From the NCBI RefSeq assembly GCF_026151205.1, contig NC_087084.1, forward strand, positions 5,573,538 through 5,637,537: a DNA stretch of 64,000 bases. The letters run 5' to 3'. This DNA is from Bolinopsis microptera (lineage: Eukaryota > Ctenophora > Tentaculata > Lobata > Bolinopsidae). Positions 43,991 to 64,000 of this stretch are shown piece by piece. The position numbers and the translations under genes are program-made. The stretch's first letter is position 1, and each line of letters begins with the position of its first letter. The notes under the pieces were generated by a model that was not told where the DNA came from, searched no databases, and saw only the letters and a list, made by a program, of their open reading frames with translations.

Positions 43991-46900
43991 ATGACTGATT
44001 CAGACCCCTACTCCCAAGCTCTCCAGTACCTTGAGGAACACCATATAGTGCCCCTGTTTCACAATCTAACTGCTAACATTGTCTACCATCAACCTACTGA
44101 TCCTGTCCAGTATATCATCGAGTAAGTGGTGGTATTTAACACGTGACAGTGATTGTGGGGTTTGATTGGTCTGTATATCATCGAGTAAGTGGTGTTATTT
44201 AACACGTGACAGTGATTCTGGGGTTTGATTGGTCTGTATATCATCGAGTAAGTGGTGTTATTTAACACGTGACAGTGATTCTGGGGTTTGATTGTTCAGT
44301 ATATCATCGAGTAAGTGGTGTTATTTAACACGTGACAGTGATTCTGGGGTTTGATTGTTCAGTATATCATCGAGTAAGTGGTGTTATTTAACACGTGACA
44401 GTGATTCTGGGGTTTGATTGTTCAGTATATCATCGAGTAAGTGGTGGTATTTAACACGTGACAGTGATTCTGGGGTTTGATTGGTCTGTATATCATCGAG
44501 TAAGTGGTGTTATTTAACACGTGACAGTGATTCTGGGGTTTGATTGTTCAGTATATCATCGAGTAAGTGGTGTTATTTAACACGTGACAGTGATTCTGGG
44601 GTTTGATTGGTCTGTATATCATCGAGTAAGTGGTGGTATTTAACACGTGACAGTGATTCTGGGGTTTGATTGTTCAGTATATCATCGAGTAAGTGGTGGT
44701 ATTTAACACGTGACTGTGATTCTGGGGTTTGATTGTTCAGTATATCATCGAGTAAGTGGTGTTATTTAACACGTGACAGTGATTCTGGGGTTTGATTGGT
44801 CTGTATATCATCGAGTAAGTGGTGTTATTTAACACGTGACAGTGATTCTGGGGTTTGATTGTTCAGTATATCATCGAGTAAGTGGTGGTATTTAACACGT
44901 GACTGTGATTCTGGGGTTTGATTGTTCAGTATATCATCGAGTAAGTGGTGGTATTTAACACGTGACAGTGATTCTGGGGTTTGATTGTTCAGTATATCAT
45001 CGAGTAAGTGGTGGTATTTAACACGTGACAGTGATTCTGGGGTTTGATTGTTCAGTATATCATCGAGTAAGTGGTGGTATTTAACACGTGACTGTGATTC
45101 TGGGGTTTGATTGTTCAGTATATCATCGAGTAAGTGGTGTTATTTAACACGTGACAGTGATTCTGGGGTTTGATTGTTCAGTATATCATCGAGTAAGTGG
45201 TGTTATTTAACACGTGACAGTGATTCTGGGGTTTGATTGTTCAGTATATCATCGAGTAAGTGGTGGTATTTAACACGTGACTGTGATTCTGGGGTTTGAT
45301 TGTTCAGTATATCATCGAGTAAGTGGTGGTATTTAACACGTGACAGTGATTCTGGGGTTTGATTGTTCAGTATATCATCGAGTAAGTGGTGGTATTTAAC
45401 ACGTGACAGTGATTCTGGGGTTTGATTGTTCAGTATATCATCGAGTAAGTGGTGGTATTTAACACGTGACAGTGATTCTGGGGTTTGATTGTTCAGTATA
45501 TCATCGAGTAAGTGGTGGTATTTAACACGTGACAGTGATTCTGGGGTTTGATTGTTCAGTATATCATCGAGTAAGTGGTGTTATTTAACACGTGACAGTG
45601 ATTCTGGGGTTTGATTGTTCAGTATATCATCGAGTAAGTGGTGGTATTTAACACGTGACTGTGATTCTGGGGTTTGATTGTTCAGTATATCATCGAGTAA
45701 GTGGTGGTATTTAACACGTGACAGTGATTCTGGGGTTTGATTGTTCAGTATATCATCGAGTAAGTGGTGGTATTTAACACGTGACTGTGATTCTGGGGTT
45801 TGATTGTTCAGTATATCATCGAGTAAGTGGTGGTATTTAACACGTGACAGTGATTCTGGGGTTTGATTGTTCAGTATATCATCGAGTAAGTGGTGGTATT
45901 TAACACGTGACAGTGATTCTGGGGTTTGATTGTTCAGTATATCATCGAGTAAGTGGTGGTATTTAACACGTGACTGTGATTCTGGGGTTTGATTGTTCAG
46001 TATATCATCGAGTAAGTGGTGGTATTTAACACGTGACAGTGATTCTGGGGTTTGATTGTTCAGTATATCATCGAGTAAGTGGTGGTATTTAACACGTGAC
46101 AGTGATTCTGGGGTTTGATTGTTCAGTATATCATCGAGTAAGTGGTGTTATTTAACACGTGACTGTGATTCTGGGGTTTGATTGTTCAGTATATTATCGA
46201 GTAAGTGGTGGTATTTAACACGTGACTGTGATTCTGGGGTTTGATTGTTCAGTATATTATCGAGTAAGTGGTGTTATTTAACACGTGACAGTGATTCTGG
46301 GGTTTGATTGTTCAGTATATTATCGAGTAAGTGGTGTTATTTAACACGTGACAGTGATTCTGGGGTTTGATTGTTCAGTATATCATCGAGTAAGTGGTGG
46401 TATTTAACACGTGACAGTGATTCTGGGGTTTGATTGTTCAGTATATCATCGAGTAAGTGGTGTTATTTAACACGTGACAGTGATTCTGGGGTTTGATTGT
46501 TCAGTATATCATCGAGTAAGTGGTGGTATTTAACACGTGACAGTGATTCTGGGGTTTGATTGTTCAGTATATCATCGAGTAAGTGGTGGTATTTAACACG
46601 TGACAGTGATTCTGGGGTTTGATTGTTCAGTATATCATCGAGTAAGTGGTGGTATTTAACACGTGACAGTGATTCTGGGGTTTGATTGTTCAGTATATCA
46701 TCGAGTAAGTGGTGTTATTTAACACGTGACAGTGATTCTGGGGTTTGATTGTTCAGTATATCATCGAGTAAGTGGTGGTATTTAACACGTGACAGTGATT
46801 CTGGGGTTTGATTGTTCAGTATATCATCGAGTAAGTGGTGGTATTTAACACGTGACAGTGATTCTGGGGTTTGATTGTTCAGTATATCATCGAGTAAGTG

Positions 46901-48518
46901 GTGGTATTTAACACGTGACTGTGATTCTGGGGTTTGATTGTTCAGTATATCATCGAGTAAGTGGTGGTATTTAACACGTGACAGTGATTCTGGGGTTTGA
47001 TTGTTCAGTATATCATCGAGTAAGTGGTGGTATTTAACACGTGACTGTGATTCTGGGGTTTGATTGTTCAGTATATTATCGAGTAAGTGGTGGTATTTAA
47101 CACGTGACAGTGATTCTGGGGTTTGATTGTTCAGTATATCATCGAGTAAGTGGTGGTATTTAACACGTGACTGTGATTCTGGGGTTTGATTGTTCAGTAT
47201 ATCATCGAGTAAGTGGTGGTATTTAACACGTGACTGTGATTCTGGGGTTTGATTGTTCAGTATATCATCGAGTAAGTGGTGGTATTTAACACGTGACAGT
47301 GATTCTGGGGTTTGATTGTTCAGTATATCATCGAGTAAGTGGTGGTATTTAACACGTGACAGTGATTCTGGGGTTTGATTGTTCAGTATATCATCGAGTA
47401 AGTGGTGGTATTTAACACGTGACAGTGATTCTGGGGTTTGATTGTTCAGTATATCATCGAGTAAGTGGTGGTATTTAACACGTGACAGTGATTCTGGGGT
47501 TTGATTGTTCAGTATATCATCGAGTAAGTGGTGTTATTTAACACGTGACAGTGATTCTGGGGTTTGATTGTTCAGTATATCATCGAGTAAGTGGTGGTAT
47601 TTAACACGTGACAGTGATTCTGGGGTTTGATTGTTCAGTATATCATCGAGTAAGTGGTGGTATTTAACACGTGACTGTGATTCTGGGGTTTGATTGTTCA
47701 GTATATCATCGAGTAAGTGGTGGTATTTAACACGTGACAGTGATTCTGGGGTTTGATTGGTCTGTATATCATCGAGTAAGTGGTGGTATTTAACACGTGA
47801 CAGTGATTCTGGGGTTTGATTGTTCAGTATATCATCGAGTAAGTGGTGGTATTTAACACGTGACAGTGATTCTGGGGTTTGATTGGTCTGTAGTGGATGG
47901 TGATTGGTTTATTGTCGTCATGTGTCAACAATATGCCTTACCTCACAAGTATAATCTATATCTGTAGAAGTATAGATAGAGGTTGGGTATATGTTTTTCT
48001 TTTTATCTTTTGAATAGGCCAGGGGTCGAGGAATATTTGTAAAAACTTGCAGGACAAAGAGAAACAATACGAGCCGGATATGTTAGTTCCGGCCGGCGTG
48101 GGATTTCCCCCTGATTCCTGGCCGCAACTAACACATCCCACGCCGGCCGAAATTAACACGTCCTTTGAAGTATACTTTATTTATTGATGCAGTTTATTGA
48201 TAGAATACAGATTGACGTGAAACTAATTATCTTTCATTTAGAAACTCAGAATAAGCAAATCTTTGTGAACTTGGCCTCTGGTGCCACTCTATTTTTATTT
48301 GTACATAGTTAAATGGTACAGAGGTCATCTTAATCTGATAACATCACTCAGTATTGAATCTGTAACTTATCTCCTCATCGATTAACCTTGTACTTTTCAG
48401 TGAGATCGAGAAATTGGTCGACAACGGAGGAATCTTCAAGGGAGACGAAGGAGAAATCCATCCAATTCCAAAAGAAGAAAAAAAGGAAGAGAAAAAAGAT
48501 AAGAAGGAAAAAAAGTGA
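43991..48518 (+). CDS. Small RIIa/DPY-30-like docking-domain protein
   Basis: Two exons, 43991-44121 and 48401-48518 (TGA), join in phase (GA|T) to 82 residues. Residues about 8-53 (ALQYLEEHHIVPLFHNLTAN ... PTDPVQYII-DEIEKL) fit the RIIa/DPY-30 dimerisation-docking fold: helix, loop with YHQPTDP, helix. This fold occurs at the N terminus of adenylate kinase 5-like and EFCAB10-like proteins and in many ciliary proteins. The tail is strongly basic and acidic (KEEKKEEKKDKKEKK). It may dock to AKAP-type or radial-spoke helices, but that is inference. The 4.28 kb intron is almost entirely a 63-bp minisatellite that copies the exon 1/intron boundary. The second exon was chosen by the TTTTCAG acceptor, phase and the continuing helix. 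Confidence 0.8.
44108..47890 (+). repeat. 63-bp minisatellite (~60 copies) carrying a 5' splice site
   Basis: Each unit begins CAGTATATCATCGAGTAAGT, that is the last 14 bases of exon 1 (ending at 44121) plus the donor GTAAGT, and continues GGTGGTATTTAACACGTGAC and AGTGATTCTGGGGTTTGATTGTT. Variants are limited: GGTG/TTAT, CAGT/CTGT, ATC/ATT and GTTCAG/GGTCTG. The first unit is the genuine exon boundary. The array ends at a partial unit near 47890. Each unit also contains a CACGTG E-box. Confidence 0.98.
48078..48163. repeat. Imperfect hairpin with GGCCGGCGTGGGAT arms
   Basis: TGTTAGTTCCGGCCGGCGTG at about 48079 is matched by the inverted ATCCCACGCCGGCCGAAATTAACA at about 48135. The arms are ~25 bp with a few mismatches and ~30 nt between. 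It could be a short foldback element and lies in the intron of the RIIa-like gene. Confidence 0.65.
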
Positions 48519-49563: not shown

Positions 49564-52500
49564 TCATTTCTTGCCCCTCTTGGGAGTTGCCTTTGCGGCA
49601 ATCTTATCGATCCTAGCGTTTACGTTCGCACAGTTTTCGGAGATTTGCTTCAGATTTTCAGCGATGTTGTCTTCAACCTGAGATTAATCACGATGAACAG
49701 TTAATCAAAATGAATTGTAAGTCACCAGCAGCTCACATATTGTTATTGAATGATCTTATTTAACGACTTCATTAAACTTCGCCAGCAGTTCACATCTTGT
49801 TATTGAATGATCTTATTTAACAACTTCATTAAACTTCGCTAGCAGCTCACATCTTGTTATTGAATGATCTTATATAACGACTTCATTAAACTTCGCTAGC
49901 AGCTCACATCTTGTTATTGAATGATCTTATTTAACAACTTCATTAAACTTCGCTAGCAGCTCACATCTTGTTATTGAATGATCTTATATAACGACTTCAT
50001 TAAACTTCGCCAGCAGCTCACATCTTGTTATTGAATGATCTTATTTAACGACTTCATTAAACTTCGCTAGCAGCTCACATCTTGTTATTGAATGATCTTA
50101 TTTAACGACTTCATTAAACTTCGCTAGCAGCTCACATCTTGTTATTGAATGATCTTATTTAAGATGACCCCCCTAAATATTATAACAGGATCTCACCTTC
50201 TTAACGAGAGCACCTTGGTTAGCAAGGTTCTTGGTTACATTTGCTTGGGTAGTTTCAAGAGTTGTCAGGTTACTGGCGAATTGGGCAGCTGAGAGGGGAA
50301 TCATGGTATTACATTGTGTAGTGAATTATGAATAATATCATTAATTGCTTATACTTAAATAAGATGAATTAATCATCACAACATTACCATGATAGTATCA
50401 ATTTATAAATCATTTTTGTGGATACTATCATGTTTGCAGTTCGATAATAATTGCAACACCATGTAAAGATTTCAATAGATGAGACTAAGGTCTTTTCCTA
50501 ATTGATAATTCGATTATCATGATTACATGGTAATAGGATGTCACATTTTTAATGAGAATCTGAAAAACAACTGCAACAATCTTCAAGATCATTATATGAC
50601 GTTTACCTTGTTCATGAAGAACTTTGAGAGCTGTCAGTCTATCAACAATGTTTGGAAGAGTCGATATTACTGGCTCTATCTTTCTAACTGTGTCAAACAC
50701 TTCCGAAACCTGAACAAATAATTAGTGAAATTATTTAGTTAATTAACTAGTGGAATTATTTGTGCTCTTCATTAAGGAATGAGACTCAGCTTAATATGCT
50801 AGTTTTATAAAAAACCAGGTTTCTTTGTCAAATCGAGATTCTTATGAAGGTTTGAAGACACATCACAAACTTCTGTAACCATGGTAACACAGCACAGAAT
50901 TCTGTTACCACGGTAACACAGCACAGAGTTCTGTTACCACGGTAACACAGCACAGAGTTCTGTTACCACGGTAACACAGCACAGAGTTCTGTAACCATGG
51001 TAACACAGCACAGAGTTCTGTAACCATGGTAACACAGCACAGAGTTCTGTAACCATGGTAACACAGCACATAGTTCTGTAACCACGGTAACACAGCACAG
51101 AGTTCTGTAACCATGGTAACACAGCACAGATTTCTGCAACCATGGTAACACAGCACAGATTTCTGTAACCATGGTAACACAGCACAGTTATTTACCTTGT
51201 TGTTAGTCTCAGGAATGTCCTTAGCTTTAGACTTAAGGTGATCCATCTTGTGAAGAACAGCCTGCAAGAAAGGTTCAAACATCAATGTTCAGTGTTTAAG
51301 TATTTGATATCAGGTACGACAGAAGTTGCAAATCCAATTTTGAATTTAGAAGGGAAAAAATGCAATAGAGAGTATGTTCCCTGCAAAAAGTAAACAGTTG
51401 GGCGATTTATCTTGATTTTTAACAAATTAGATTTATTGAATTTAGAAGTTTAATTTGAATGATATGTTACAGTCAACTGCTAAAAAATTGGTACCTGAAG
51501 TCTCGTATCAATGTGGGTGTAATCACTTGGCTCAATAAGAGAAAGCTTTGTCTGGATATTGTTAATGGCACCCATTACACTCTTCTCGGAGGAGTCGGCT
51601 GATATCGTACTCTGAATTATGTGAAATATTAATTATCTAATTAATATTATTACTCTGAAATATGTAAACAACATATCTAAACAACTCCTTCAAAAACTTG
51701 ATGTCTGCCACAGGAATCATCTCCGTACGATCATCGGCATGACCTACCCTATTGTCATACGAAATGTGACTCTATACAAACGCTGCGAAGTTGTTCCACT
51801 AAGTGAGCGTGTTGCTCGTGCACGGTGGAGAATGCTCGGTCACATCCTCCGCAGTGATAATAACTCACCTGCCCAGCTTGCCTTACATTTTGCTGTAGAG
51901 AGTCAGAGTTTGATGAGAGGTAGAGTCGGACGACACCAGTCAAACTTGTTAAAAACTATTTTGAACGATTTAAGTGACAGAAACTTTAGACTTGTAAATA
52001 CAGACGATTTATACCATTTAAGACATTTTGCAACAGATAGAAAAGCATGGAGAGAGTTAAGCATGATTTAGTTTATTCTGTGTTATTTTTCTCTTGGTGA
52101 CTTATCAGGTCATCAAGATGTTCTTTATGTTCTATTTTTGATTTGAATAAAGTTATATAATAATGAAATATGTGAATTATGTGCAATATGTGGTTAATTA
52201 ACTCCACTTATCTGACAATGAGCTTCTCTTTAATAAAAGGTTGACAGATTGCGGAGACAGTAGCTAATCTGTATTCTTGTTAATTTTGAGCACATACCAA
52301 GAGTTTGAGATCTTTTCCCATGTTCTTTTCCATATCAGCAATCCTTTTCTCAAGGGACGCCAACTGAAATGATAAACCATGATAAATACACGAAAGAAGC
52401 GGATTATGGATATATAATTTAAAAACTTACGACACATTCATTTTCAGACAAATGCTCTAAAAAAATACACGTTTCTTGATGACGATGTGTATCTTTAAAT

Positions 52501-55864: not shown

Positions 55865-58800
55865 TCAGGAAACAGCATTTGCTGCACGGGGGATACAAGC
55901 CCCAATCAAATCCTCGGGTGTTACCGTTGAAATGAACTGTTTTCCGACAATTGCGTGGAGTGATTTTACAACAGCTAAAGTCTCTATATCCGTTACAGCG
56001 TGACTATGAGATGTGGAATCAGACAGGGTCATCTTTATGTACTGAGACAATATCTGCAAGGGTAATTATCTAATTAGTAAATTAATTCAATTAAGGTACA
56101 TAATATGTTAAAAGCGGCGAATACTTGCGACGAAAAAGAAGGATTAAAGCAGGGTAAAAAGATAACAGTTCATTTAGGTTGTTAAATGTCATATAATTAA
56201 TGTAACCAAAAGATAAGCTATTTAACGGGCTATACTCAGTTTGTTTTATAAAGACGCCACAACAAGTCTCAACATAGATGGGATGTAATATAAATCACAT
56301 TTCACACACTGACCATACTTCCACCAACAAATTTAAAGACGAGTTGCGATTCAAATTAAAGACCTTTAAAATGGTGAACATTAAAGACGCTGAAGCCTTC
56401 ACCAAAGTTAACCATCTTTATATAACAAACTAATTAGTTAATTAACGAGCTAATAGTTAAACGACCTGAGCAGGAGTATCACAGCCGGGGAAGAAGAGCG
56501 CAGCACCAAGTGAAAGTAGAGTACTGGTAACCGATATTCTTTGATCTGGACTAGACAATGTCATGTCTTGAAGCAGTGAGATACTCTGTTGGAGGAGGAG
56601 TTTGTGAGACAAAACGTTAAGATTACCCTGTTAAATATACTTAAATCAATTATTGTCGTCCGGAGGACGGGTACCCTGCTAGTATGTGTAATGGGTGTAA
56701 TGGTTGGGATTAGGAAAGTGGTGCGAGTTTACTTTATCACATGATAGCGATTTATCGATCACCTCAAAATCAAAATTCTCCGAAACTTCTGAAAACTCAA
56801 AACGGACTCACAGACTTTGGTGGCCCAAAGTCTATTCTCAGGCAGAATTTAAAAAAATTGTTATCACACGTAGTTATTAAATTATAAGTTAACATTTTGT
56901 GAACGGGAGCAGTATTGTATTACCTAAAGTTGTAAAATAATCTGTAAGTAGAGTTTCAAGCGATAGAAACTCCGAAAAAAGACAGAGAACACATTAAACA
57001 GCGCAAAGCAACGTTCCTGTACAAAAATGTACAAAACATGGTGCAGGCATTCTAGCTAATTGCTAGTTCCTATACATTGCCACAATTATTGTACTACTTA
57101 GCATTTTAGATGGATAATTTTATGCTAACAATTTACCGTTATGAATTAAAAAGAAGGTAAGAATTAGGATAACGATTCAGGGTGAGAATCCTAGGTGGAA
57201 ACTGTATTCTTGATATAAACGAAAGTGAAAGTGAAAGTGAAAGTAGAACAAACCTCAACAAGATGAGGCACTGAAGCTAAGTCGACAGGACACTGAGCAA
57301 ATCCCGAGGAGTCTTTCTCAACAAATCCTAACACTTCAAACACTGATAGAAACGTCTTGCCTGAAAAAGGGGGATCTTTTAATATTTGGAGGAAAAATTA
57401 GGATTTTGGTATGATTAAAACGTTTAATTTATTCATTATATTTTTCATCAACTAATCAACCAGTTCATTAATTAACCAATTAATAAGTTAATTACCTAAG
57501 GTATAGAGATCGCTCTTATCATATACACTGCTGAACAGTACAGGTTCATTGAAACTGTTGTGATGGAAACTAATTTCAGGAGACCATGCTACTGGGTTAC
57601 CTGAAATAGTAATTAACTAATTAATTAGCAGTCATTAACGAATCAACTTCGTCTCTGAGTTGGATATTATCACTCGATGTATTTTCACTTTTAATTGTTT
57701 CGTTAATTATTTACCTAAGTTTAAAATCAGTTAAATAGTAATGGTTTACCTGCGATTATTTCGTTTTTATCAGTAGCTATTGCGGGCGAACCATCAGAAT
57801 TATTCAAGTTAACAGCCCAACCAAAATCAATCAGTATCACCTAAATAACAACAAATCAATTAATAAACAAGTACAATGATTTGACTTCAAAATTTAAAAT
57901 ACAAGCTCAGTCAGTGGACAATTTAAATTAGACTTACACTATTCTACACTATATAATATCTAAACGCTGTAAAAAGTGATAAAAAGTTATTTAAAAACAG
58001 CCACCTCCCCCCGAGAACAAACCTGGCCAGAGTGTCGCATCATAAAGTTATCAAGTTTAATATCCCTGTGCACCACATTGTGTTTCTTCATGTGGTGTAG
58101 CATGAACAAGCACTGTATTAGCAGGAGGAGGACGAGGTGGAGCTCTTCTGCTATACGGTCTGGAAAATAAAATCAATTAGTTTGCGAGTAATTAATTAAT
58201 TATCCAAACAGCCAGCTGAACCCCTGACTATACGGTCTGGAAAATAAAAACAATTAGTTTGCCAGTAATTAATTAATTAATTATCCAAACAGCCAGTTGA
58301 ACCCCTGACTAGATATTATCATAAGCTGGGTATCATTGAAGTGAAATAAAACCTACCCTTATCCATGAAGGCTAGTTTCACTTTCTGTTCCACAAATTTA
58401 TTAACAAAGTTCTTCAGACTAAAAGGGTATTCTCTCATCGCTAGGAACGAGGTCCTGCTCGCCATGTCCACATCTACATCCAGCCCAGAGGGTACCAGCA
58501 GGGGCAAATACCTGTCAAGTGGACAATTTGTGAGGTGTTAAATGTGGTAAATTGTGGTAAAATGTGGTAAAATGTGGTAAGTATTTCGCTTTTTTCACCG
58601 GAGTCAAACAGTCCACTCCACTTGAATAACCCCGCCTACAATAATAAGACTATACATGCAACTTGTAGGCTACAGTATTACCTGTCAGGAACCTACTGTA
58701 CGCGATAATTGTCAATACAGGTGTAGCGTAGTAAGTAAGTAGTCAGTACCTGAGCTGTAGTAAGTCTCTGTTGAAAGTGTAAACTTTTACAATATATGGT

Positions 58801-61697
58801 ACAACCAATCTTTACTCTTTAGTAAGTCAATAGTTTGCAAGTTTGTCCGTATGTTCGTCCTGTCAGTGCCTCAATGTCTTGTACTGATGAGTATTGAGAT
58901 CAGTGTACTAAGATAGACTTTATCAGATCAGTAACTTTAAACTGACAAAATAGCCATAGTTACTGACAAAACAATCAGAGTAACTGACAAGGCAACCCTG
59001 TACTGGATCAGCTGTATGCTTGTTTGAATGTTATTTCATATTGTGCTTGTACGGCAGGTCCACCGATTGTCAGTAAGTTTGTCATTGTGAATGTGGGTAT
59101 ATTCATCTTCATAATAATTTATGCTTGTCAGACGTCAGTGTTTTTGCCAGTATGTTATTTAGTCAGTATGTTTGTCAGTATGTTTGTCAGTATGTTTGTC
59201 AGTATGTTTGTCAGTATGTTTGTCAGTATGTTTGTCAGTATGTTTGTCAGTATGTTTGTCAGTGTGTTTGTCAGTATGTTTATCAGTATATTTGTCAGTG
59301 TGTTTGTCAGTGTGTTTGTCAGTATGTTTGTCAGTATGTTTATCAGTATGTTTGTCAGTGTGTTTGTCAGTATGTTTATCAGTATATTTGTCAGTATGTT
59401 TGTCAGTATGTTTATCAATATGTTTGTCAGTATGTTTATCAGTATGTTTGTCAGTATGTTTGTCAGTATGTTTGTCAGTATGTTTGTCAGTGTGTTTGTC
59501 AGTGTGTTTGTCAGTTTGTTTGTCAGTATGTTTGTCAGTTTGTTTGTCAGTATGTTTGTCAGTTTGTTTGTCAGTATGTTTGTCAGTATGTTTGTCAGTA
59601 TGTTTGTCAGTATGTTTGTCAGTAAGTTTGTCAGTTTGTTTGTCAGTGTGTTTGTCAGTATGTTTGTCAGTATGTTTGTCAGTTTGTTTGTCAGTGTGTT
59701 TGTCAGTGTGTTTGTCAGTGTGTTTGTCAGTATGTTTGTCAGTATGTTTGCCAGTGTGTTTGTCAGTATGTTTGTCAGTATATTTGTCAGTATGTTTGTC
59801 AGTATGTTTGTCAGTATGTTTGCCAGTATGTTTGCCAGTATGTTTGTCAGTTTGTTTGTCAGTACACTGACCGTTTGAAAGGGGTGGTAGACGCGTTGTA
59901 AGAGTGTAACATCTGAACAACATTAGGATGATAAGGTAGTGAAACAGGGACAGAGTGTTCAGCGCTAAACTGTTTCTTCAGAAATATAGTTCCACTTTGA
60001 CCGGTATCGTGCTCTGATTGGTTCAGCAGATTTACCTGAGACGATTGGTTTACAGAGCAAGTAAATATTTGTTGTTAAGAGGGGGGTATATTCGTACGGC
60101 CGCTAGGTATAAAAACAAGCAAACAAAATCACCAAAAAGTACATTATTATAATTGTTCAGTAACACTGAAGGCGGGAGCAACAACTTGATAGAATATGAC
60201 AGATCATAATACACAAAGAATGTTAACCTTACTGTCCTTACAACTACGCAAATATGCATGCATGCGAAGAGTGGAAAGTAGATTGTATGAAGTAGTGAAG
60301 TACACTAAAGTAAATAAATTACTGAAGTTCATTATTTGGGTAATTTTTATCACTGACTTCAAGTCTCTAAAACTGAACTAGGAAGGAATGCAATTTTATA
60401 TTAAACAAAACACACTACAATTGTTATGTTTATTTGAACTAGAAATAACATTGAAAAATTAATGAATAAGCGAATAGTTTAATTAAGTTCAAACCATCAT
60501 TTTAAGAACCAGCGGGCCGTAGTGTTGGTGCAGGATCTTAAATACAAGGGAACAACTTCCTTCTCTTTCGTGCACATCTGAAAATTAACAGTTTATTGAC
60601 AGTAATAAATAGCTAATAAATAAATTTTAGCATTTATTACATGCTTCAACATTAACCCAAAAATGGTATATCTAAGCAAATCATGCGAGTCTGATTATCA
60701 AAATATCGAATTCATGCGAGTTTAATTAACCAATTAATTGATTAATCAAAAGTCCAAATAACAGAGTAACTAACTTTGTACGTTGAGGGGGGTGTTAGAA
60801 ACCAGCACATAGTCTTCCCCGTACAACCATTCTCCCTTAGAAACCTCTGAAATAAATACACAACTTTACTTATTCAGTAAACTAACTTTACTTATTTAGT
60901 AAACTAACCACTTTATGAAACTAACCACTTTATAAAACTAACCACTTTATAAAACTAACCACTTTATAAAACTAACCACTTTATAAAACTAACCACTTTA
61001 TAAAACTAACCACTTTATAAAACTAACAACTTTATTACTGCAAAAGCCGCGCAAGGAAGGGATTCATTCTAGTGCAGCAGGCCAATAAACATCAAACTCA
61101 GGGGTAGATACGTTTTATCGATAATTAAAAACCGGCAAACTACCCAAACAGAAGTACTACAAACAGCAAGTGACAGCAAGTGACAATACACGCTCTCAAA
61201 CTATACAGCAAGTGACAATACACGCTCTCAAACAACAGTAACTGAGTGGTAGGAGAGGGTATAACATACACAGCTCAGGTTACACTACATGTGCCCTGAT
61301 AACAGTGGTTACGTAGCAACCGTTGCTATGTGATAACAGTATGAAGTAGTTTGTTATGGGTAGGTAGTTCATTCATTATGGGCCTGCTGTACTTTCCATT
61401 ATTATGCTAAAGCAAACTTTCACGCTGTCTGTTTGCGGTAAAGCGGGCGCAGTAAATCGGGGTTTCACTGTAATTACTAATTAAGTAATTATGTCTAATG
61501 ATAATATCTTATTCACTGTAATTACTAATTATGTCTAATGATAATATCTAAGAACATGCATCTTACCCACCGATAGCTCCAGACTCATCAGGCCAGGGAG
61601 GCGGTACACTTCTTGCTATGTTAACCAGAGCGGCTTTAACAGCGGACACAGTAGCGTGTTGCAGGACCGGGGACAGGTCTGATATAAGGTGATCTAC
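55865..61697 (-). CDS. PINK1: PINK1-like serine/threonine kinase, 3' exons (5' end outside window)
   Basis: Eleven exons join in phase to about 449 residues: 61697-61571, 60846-60775, 60577-60495, 60035-59872, 58511-58357, 58159-58023, 57840-57750, 57600-57496, 57360-57254, 56585-56466, 56053-55865 (TGA). PINK1-like marks are YGEDYVLV at the start of the N lobe, the invariant Lys in PLVLKMM, LPYHPNVVQMLHSY, then LVPSGLDVDVD ... MREYPFSLKNFV. Catalysis motifs are VVHRDIKLDNF (HRD), LIDFGWA (DFG) and WSPEI in place of APE. A PINK1-like helical C-terminal extension follows. PINK1 phosphorylates ubiquitin and Parkin on damaged mitochondria. The Gly-rich loop reads REGSCSLVF, lacking the first Gly of the usual pattern. 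The mitochondrial targeting exons should lie beyond 64000. The donor at 61571 (GTGGGT) was chosen by phase over a stronger GTAAGA four bases on. Confidence 0.9.
58151..58301 (-). repeat. Two-copy ~75-bp duplication spanning a PINK1 acceptor
   Basis: CTATACGGTCTGGAAAATAA ... AACCCCTGACT occurs at 58151-58226 and again at about 58227-58301, with a few differences and a 4-bp ATTA length change. On the gene strand both copies contain TTATTTTCCAG|ACCGTATAG, the acceptor plus the first ~9 exon bases. Only the 58159 one continues into the real exon. Confidence 0.95.
59155..59866. repeat. (TCAGTATGTTTG)n 12-bp repeat in PINK1 intron, ~59 copies
   Basis: Twelve-bp units, with GTGTTTG, ATATTTG and TTTATC variants, end within 10 bp of the donor GTCAGT at 59871 on the gene strand. 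All long open frames in this stretch (both strands) are low-complexity artefacts of a unit length divisible by three. Confidence 0.97.
60890..61032. repeat. 17-bp tandem repeat in PINK1 intron
   Basis: About seven copies of TAAAACTAACCACTTTA lie just upstream (gene strand) of the acceptor at 60847. Related TTACTTATTYAGTAAACTAA words lie between the array and the exon. Confidence 0.9.
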
Positions 61698-64000
61698 CTG
61701 GAGAGGGGGGTGATATTAGGTGATCTACCTGGGGGTGATATTAGGTGATCTACCTGGAGAGGGGGTGATATAAGGTGATCTACCTGAGGAGGGAGTGATA
61801 TTAGGTGATCTACCTGAGGGTGATATTAGGTGATCTACCTGGAGAGGGGGTGATATAAGGTGATCTACCTGAGGAGGGAGTGATATTAGGTGATCTACCT
61901 GGGGGTGATATTAGGTGATCTACCTGGGGGTGATATTAGGTGATCTACCTGGAGAGGGGGTGATATTAGGTGATCTACCTGGGGGTGATATTAGGTGATC
62001 TACCTGGAGAGGGGGTGATATAAGGTGATCTACCTGAGGAGGGAGTGATATTAGGTGATCTACCTGGGGGTGATATTAGGTGATCTACCTGGGGTGATAT
62101 TAGGTGATCTACCTGATGAGGGGGTGATATTAGGTGATCTACCTGAGGAGGGAGTGATATTAGGTGATCTACCTGATGAGGGGGTGATATTAGGTGATCT
62201 ACCTGGAGAGGGGGTGATATAAGGTGATCTACCTGAGGAGGGAGTGATATTAGGTGATCTACCTGGGGGTGATATTAGGTGATCTACCTGGAGAGGGGGT
62301 GATATAAGGTGATCTACCTGAGGAGGGAGTGATATTAGGTGATCTACCTGGGGGTGATATTAGGTGATCTACCTGGGGGTGATATTAGGTGATCTACCTG
62401 GAGAGGGGGTGATATTAGGTGATCTACCTGGGGGTGATATTAGGTGATCTACCTGGAGAGGGGGTGATATAAGGTGATCTACCTGAGGAGGGAGTGATAT
62501 TAGGTGATCTACCTGGGGGTGATATTAGGTGATCTACCTGAGGAGGGGGTGATATTAGGTGATCTACCTGAGGAGGGGGTGATATTAGGTGATCTACCTG
62601 GAGAGGGGGTGATATTAGGTGATCTACCTGGGGGTGATATTAGGTGATCTACCTGGGGGTGATATTAGGTGATCTACCTGGAGAGGGGGTGATATAAGGT
62701 GATCTACCTGAGGAGGGGGTGATATCAGGTGATCTACCTGAGGAGGGGGTGATATTAGGTGATCTACCTGGAGAGGGGGTGATATTAGGTGATCTACCTG
62801 AGGAGGGGGTGATATTAGGTGATCTACCTGGAGAGGGGGTGATATTAGGTGATCTACCTGATGAGGGGGTGATATAAGGTGATCTACCTGGGGAGGGGGT
62901 GATATTAGGTGATCTACCTGGAGAGGGGGTGATATAAGGTGATCTACCTGGGGTGATATTAGGTGATCTACCTGGGGAGGCTAGGGGGTGATATTAGGTG
63001 ATCTACCTGGAGAGGGGGTGATATTAGGCGATCTACCTGGGGTGATATTAGGTGATCTACCTGGAGAGGGGGTGATATTAGGTGATCTACCTGGGGGTGA
63101 TATTAGGTGATCTACCTGAGGAGGGGGTGATATTAGGTGATCTACCTGAGGAGGGGGTGATATAAGGTGATCTACCTGAGGAGGGGGTGATATTAGGTGA
63201 TCTACCTGGGGGTGATATTAGGTGATCTACCTGAGGAGGGGGTGATATTAGGTGATCTACCTGGGGGTGATATTAGGTGATCTACCTGAGGAGGGGGTGA
63301 TATTAGGTGATCTACCTGGGGGTGATATTAGGTGATCTACCTGGGGTGATATTAGGTGATCTACCTGGGGGTGATATTAGGTGATCTACCTGGGGGTGAT
63401 ATTAGGTGATCTACCTGAGGAGGGGGTGATATTAGGTGATCTACCTGGGGGTGATATTAGGTGATCTACCTGGGGGTGATATTAGGTGATCTACCTGGGG
63501 GTGATATTAGGTGATCTACCTGAGGAGGGAGTGATATTAGGTGATCTACCTGAGGAGGGGGTGATATTAGGTGATCTACCTGAGGAGGGGGTGATATTAG
63601 GTGATCTACCTGGGGAGGGAGTGATATTAGGTGATCTACCTGAGGAGGGAGTGATATTAGGTGATCTACCTGAGGAGGGGGTGATATTAGGTGATCTACC
63701 TGGGGGTGATATTAGGTGATCTACCTGAGGAGGGAGTGATATTAGGTGATCTACCTGAGGAGGGGGTGATATTAGGTGATCTACCTGAGGAGGGGGTGAT
63801 ATTAGGTGATCTACCTGGGGGTGATATTAGGTGATCTACCTGGGGGTGATATTAGGTGATCTACCTGGGGTGATATTAGGTGATCTACCTGATGAGGGGG
63901 TGATATTAGGTGATCTACCTGGGGTGATATTAGGTGATCTACCTGGGGTGATATTAGGTGATCTACCTGGGGGTGATATTAGGTGATCTACCTGGAGAGG
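61698..64000 (-). repeat. 25/30-bp minisatellite (~80 copies) carrying a 3' splice site
   Basis: Gene-strand units read CACCTAATATCACCCCCTCC + TCAGGTAGAT (30 bp) or a 25-bp form missing CTCCT. Each has a branch-point-like CTAAT, a C/T tract, AG, and the first exon bases GTAGATCACC. The unit touching 61697 is the genuine acceptor of the most upstream PINK1 exon visible. The array is still running at the window end. Mixed 25-, 30- and 31-bp forms are interspersed as higher-order blocks. Confidence 0.97.

Follow-up and report, generated by a model that had tools for sequence, protein, structure and literature searches.

At the end of the 64,000-base-pair (bp) stretch analysed here (the window; C13:5573538–5637537 in a genome of 264.65 Mb and 232 contigs, which was searched as a whole), a long minisatellite abuts the first modelled exon of a PINK1-like gene, and its units carry a junction that resembles both ends of an intron. 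The gene was modelled on the minus strand as 10 exons with GT–AG borders that join into one open frame of 403 amino acids, the stop codon ending at 55865. Exon 1 (E1) occupies 61571–61697 if the acceptor at 61697 is used (an alternative start lies at 61678), is open and in phase with E2, and takes its first 18 nucleotides (nt; 61680–61697) from a partial repeat unit, such that the open exon in the kinase frame directly follows the array. The remaining exons, all on the same strand, are E2 (60775–60846), E3 (60495–60577), E4 (59872–60035), E5 (58357–58511), E6 (58023–58159, its acceptor inside an 81-bp double repeat), E7 (57750–57840), E8 (57496–57600), E9 (57254–57360) and E10 (55865–56053, with the stop codon). 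An ankyrin-repeat gene on the same strand lies upstream and ends at ~64235, ~120 bp short of the array.

An earlier model-written note on this DNA (hereafter the original prediction) had named the gene PINK1, and a search against the PDB bears this out: PINK1 chains are the best matches in the ranking (E 1.1e-9, model residues 116–355), the best non-PINK1 kinase reaching 1.3e-5. Against the genome the model gave 11 matches, i.e., its own 10 exons and one on another contig, and no second PINK1-like copy, such as a paralogue whose 5′ end is known, was found genome-wide. Relatives of the model sought among 4076 protein-database candidates yielded none at E ≤ 0.001.

The repeat unit and its splice-site likeness

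Tandem Repeats Finder reports window positions 61680–63997 as a tandem array with periods of 30, 55, and 85. The original prediction had proposed sequence beyond 64000 as the place to seek the end of the array, and the fetched contig sequence places it at ~64117, 117 bp past the window; the minisatellite, read on the minus strand as AG|GTAGAT, a pyrimidine tract and CAG, thus runs from 61680 through 64000 and on to ~64117. Of its 87 units, 49 measure 30 nt, 27 measure 25 nt, 7 measure 24 nt, and one each 18, 29, 31, and 35 nt; the ~80-fold amplification first proposed is thus present, while the description of the unit as 30 bp long fits 49 of the 87 and fails for the rest, which are mostly 24 or 25 nt. 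On the minus strand the unit reads GTAGATCACCTAATATCACCCCC[TCTCC]AG, the short form lacking the bracketed TCTCC. GTAGAT occurs in all 87 units and is preceded by CAG in 85 (CAA in the other two), giving an AG|GT site, CAG|GTAGAT, in 85/87 units on the strand of the PINK1-like gene, as in tandem dual-specific sites; a branch-like yUnAy motif is found in 86/87, and the tract is 99% pyrimidine. The predicted make-up of the unit—branch-like motif, pyrimidine tract, CAG—is therefore the one found. Searched across the whole genome with up to 3 mismatches, the unit pattern gave 86 matches, every one inside this array, which rules out a dispersed repeat family as its source. By eye, the base that varies most among the first 18 nt of the unit is position 12, which serves as the free base of yUnAy and at once as the third position of a leucine codon in the VDHLIS frame.

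Splice-site likeness was scored with matrices built from 22 donors and 22 acceptors in the PINK1-like, ankyrin, TPI-like and RIIa-like gene models, where the TPI-like label comes from reading the protein rather than from a search. The array acceptors were kept out of the matrices, while the E1 donor and the first donor of the 63-bp array described below were included. The acceptor at 61697 scores 11.45 versus 2.73 for 61678, in agreement with its original designation as the acceptor. Across the 85 units, the median acceptor score (10.75) exceeds 18/22 modelled acceptors by leave-one-out comparison, and the donor score (8.50) exceeds 21/22 modelled donors. Because the unit ranks this high as both, the CAG|GTAGAT junction is, on these scores, most aptly called a dual-specific AG|GT site, donor-like as much as acceptor-like. 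The original reading of the unit as an acceptor only, and of its junction as a "weak" recursive-splicing point, is consequently not supported, given a donor score above nearly all modelled donors. By its scores the unit has the form of a recursive splice site, i.e., an acceptor followed by a regenerated donor.

Such scores are rare elsewhere. When sites outside the array were counted on both strands of a genome sample of 281463 bp (281 kb), the score of 61697 was equalled by 25 of 33011 AGs and the median acceptor score of the unit by 42, compared with 4917 for the score of 61678; 147 of 34089 GTs reach the donor score of the unit. Both scores together are reached by only 3 of the 2192 AGGT sites counted there. 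Among 5000 dinucleotide shuffles, the dual score was matched by 2 for the 30-mer and 28 for the lower-scoring 25-mer, the acceptor score alone by 18 and 207, and the donor score alone by 47 and 90, respectively. No strand of the other arrays in the sample (0/94 strands, 47 arrays) attained the dual score.

Given the phase-0 entry that 61697 requires, just one of the 85 acceptor choices, 61697 itself, leaves the frame open; 68/85 shift the frame, and 16/85 remain in frame and then meet a stop. The frame-keeping units of the human UBC gene (see below) are thus not what is found here. As 84/85 choices shift the frame or meet a stop, competition among acceptors would truncate the protein and would not add residues. 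Of the two outcomes originally foreseen for such competition, frameshifts would follow from 68/85 choices, while repeat-derived residues are not supported, since the 16 other in-frame choices run into a stop.

The unit core, AGGUAGAUCACCU, is a near palindrome, and folding predictions replace a hairpin inside one unit with pairing between units. Across 16 windows (150 nt, 60 shuffles each), the mean fold z-score is −2.40 (range −1.0 to −3.9). The mean predicted unpaired probability is 0.18 at 80 AGGUAGAU sites versus 0.59 across all bases, and five modelled donors outside the array have values of 0.31 to 0.64. Such inter-unit pairing is predicted to enclose the AG|GU sites, and internal copies might be used less often for it.

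Interpretation and alternatives

Taken together, these data suggest, on what we regard as an even chance, that the array is a minisatellite private to this locus of the exon-boundary kind termed a "mirage" in amphioxus genes, lying in the intron that abuts E1 on its upstream side and composed of tandem dual-specific splice sites. The intron most likely ends at 61697, and only if 61697 is the acceptor does the array span an exon boundary. The array would then be spliced out, either in one go or stepwise, and excision between any two AG|GT sites would regenerate an identical junction. As any copy-to-copy splice would restore the same junction, we infer that repeat number is neutral once the array is fully removed, and a near-neutral repeat number would leave the array free to expand. 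Conversely, use of an upstream acceptor or incomplete removal would lead to a premature stop, and pairing between units may hide the internal sites from use.

Several observations weigh against this mirage-type reading. Splice-site use is predicted here from sequence and gene models, and the 44 matrix sites were chosen by the authors from gene models rather than from transcripts. The PINK1 alignment begins only at model residue 116, and model residues 1–154 alone, E1 included, gave no PINK1 match at E values up to 10; support for E1 accordingly comes from the donor, from the frame being open and from its joining E2 in phase. The codon score of E1 (+12.1 bits in frame, 0.33 per codon) is the highest among the PINK1-like exons; however, the trusted exons of this gene, read in their own frame, reach no more than about −0.09 to 0.20 per codon, which makes the codon score a weak measure. 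A start-codon exon for the gene was not found among the best 14 frames in a scan of 64060–73000, and the most hydrophobic open frames in that interval (best 14 listed) lack a methionine codon. Folded separately, a segment at the E1 edge does not surpass its shuffles (z −0.02), a second segment having z −3.60, and the predicted pairing touches the last unit as well as the internal ones.

The placement of tandem repeats adds a further point against it and feeds the best-surviving alternative, namely that the array is an ordinary intronic minisatellite with a fortuitous likeness to splice sites, that E1 starts at 61678 or is no exon at all, and that the repeats are idle in splicing. Tandem repeats are plentiful in the sample (53 arrays covering 47924 bp), and trusted splice sites lie mostly outside them: 2/44 fall within tandem repeats, which make up 32% of the sequence holding those sites, so that arrays as a class avoid splice sites and spanning a boundary is not their rule. 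The broader idea that splice sites are a regular feature of arrays was tried and fails, as the other arrays in the sample reach the acceptor threshold on 0/94 strands and the donor threshold on 1/94. Yet a dual score matched by 2/5000 shuffles is hard to obtain by chance, and 61697 scores far above 61678. We consider the fortuitous-likeness explanation possible though unlikely, roughly at the level of one chance among four.

Markedly less probable, in our view, is that the repeats act as a donor array, in which a coding exon with an ATG at ~64181 enters the distal array, exits at a CAG|GTAGAT and joins the acceptor at 61678. The junction itself is well suited to this role, as it surpasses 21/22 donors and nearly equals a modelled CAG|GTAGAA of the TPI-like gene, and by reading, the ATG frame, exited at 64076, is in phase with 61678 and begins without an acidic residue. 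PINK1 proteins carry an N-terminal mitochondrial targeting and membrane segment and have a long hydrophobic segment, and the candidate exon lacks the latter. The scenario also depends on the weak acceptor at 61678 (2.73), and the codon score of the candidate exon, −0.06 bits per codon, decides nothing because it lies within the range of trusted exons.

We hold it just as doubtful that the array represents an outron or the intercistronic sequence following the ankyrin gene, with the units serving as alternative acceptors for a trans-spliced leader. Only ~120 bp separate the ankyrin stop from the array, and, should the genome be that of a ctenophore, trans-spliced leaders are common in the group, e.g., in Hormiphora, where 56% of Iso-Seq reads are reported to have one (PMC8527503). 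However, by reading, the PINK1 frame downstream of the array has its first methionine only in E3, within the kinase, and the 20-nt end of the Hormiphora leader has no match in the window even with 3 mismatches allowed and is not clearly enriched genome-wide (376 versus 321 for the reversed control). A broader scheme, in which minisatellites of this genome preferentially amplify splice junctions, the intron heals itself through AG|GT-to-AG|GT excision, pairing between neighbouring units masks internal sites, introns could lengthen harmlessly and copy number tunes PINK1 output via premature stops, strikes us as improbable.

Relation to known systems

Arrays of this kind are already known; 85 near-identical candidate dual sites beside one exon are unusual in number and in regularity. 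In amphioxus, the Adh3 and globin genes contain "mirages," tandem repeats that span exon boundaries and affect both borders; BflGb6 haplotypes carry 3 and 6 copies of 150–160 bp, Adh3 units measure 10–72 bp, and reverse-transcription PCR suggests normal splicing (PMC3087553). Many, though not all, mirage units carry AG/GT signals, as the PINK1-like array does (PMC3087553). The human UBC gene has tandem dual-specific AGGT sites that are shown to be spliced, within coding, frame-keeping units of 228 nt (PMC10809524); the likeness lies in an AGGT in each tandem unit able to act as a 5′ or a 3′ splice site. In contrast to both systems, the array described here is known from its letters alone: it differs from the mirages in consisting of 87 short units, and from UBC in having units of 24, 25, or 30 nt that break the frame.

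A minisatellite with multiple donor sites is the subject of a 1995 paper, by its title as cited in PMC2915984, and likewise multiplies a splice site; that array concerns donors, to judge from the title, whereas the one beside E1 offers dual AG|GT sites next to an acceptor. Intron gain through tandem duplication of an AGGT-containing segment (the Rogers model) is an old model with small cases (PMC4974935 and PMC3629103). The fission-yeast case has 24-nt units and a proto splice site given as AGGT or AGGC, which differs between the two papers (PMC4974935; PMC3629103). The resemblance to this model is that the repeats could supply both ends of an intron, the PINK1-like array having been read in one genome.

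If the sites are used, the locus would offer a natural test of spliceosome choice, with 85 near-identical dual sites on offer. The array would also rank as a large and very regular example of those exon-boundary minisatellites from which new introns have been proposed to arise, and changes in repeat number might thereby alter the output of the gene.

Other arrays in the window and the genome

A second array in the window meets a modelled splice site. The first exon of an RIIa/Tex55-like gene (43991–44121, plus strand; Pfam Tex55 match, E 5.2e-10) ends in CAGTATATCATCGA|GTAAGT, and a 63-bp array of 60 copies (44104–47892, plus strand) repeats the exon end and donor in each copy. The array spans the exon–intron border according to the gene model, and all 60 donors are present, with the full open frame available from 1/60. 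The original prediction had described a donor array in this gene as the mirror image of the one beside PINK1, and that array is real. On a smaller scale, the E6 acceptor of the PINK1-like gene is copied in its 81-bp double repeat (58151–58311), an equal-scoring copy lying 77 bp upstream at 58236.

Genome-wide, three copies of AGGTAAGT at 43–73 nt spacing gave 1405 matches versus 1 for the reversed word, and a dinucleotide-matched word in the same arrangement gave 467 versus 27 for its reverse, such that the excess in total matches over one matched word is about threefold. These counts are of overlapping matches, many per array, with a single matched control word (n = 1). A large excess of AGGTAAGT suggested by five arrays in the first 3.1 Mb of one contig came from a sorted listing and was rejected as untypical of the whole-genome count. 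Outside repeats, AGGTAAGT is not commoner than the matched word (4 versus 9 in 220 kb). Across the genome, arrays that carry donors may therefore exceed expectation, although the 281-kb sample lacks such enrichment. The second array of the window and this genome-wide hint make above-chance amplification of splice junctions testable by complementary DNA.

Further tandem repeats were noted in passing. A 12-bp array (GTCAGTATGTTT) at 59162–59864 starts 8 bp past the donor of PINK1-like E4. A CACCT pentamer array at 421–2084 comprises ~333 copies with 99% matching, its minus strand reading AGGTG throughout. By eye, a 57-bp (49727–50162) and a 29-bp array (50858–51187) apparently occupy introns in a gene on the minus strand whose exons look coiled-coil-like, the latter array beginning near a donor, and three 84-bp tandem repeats resemble coding repeats of the zinc-finger type. 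Beyond the window, at contig positions that continue its numbering to 72853–74561 and 78618–80271, a tandem pair of long open frames that closely resemble each other looks arrestin-like by eye.
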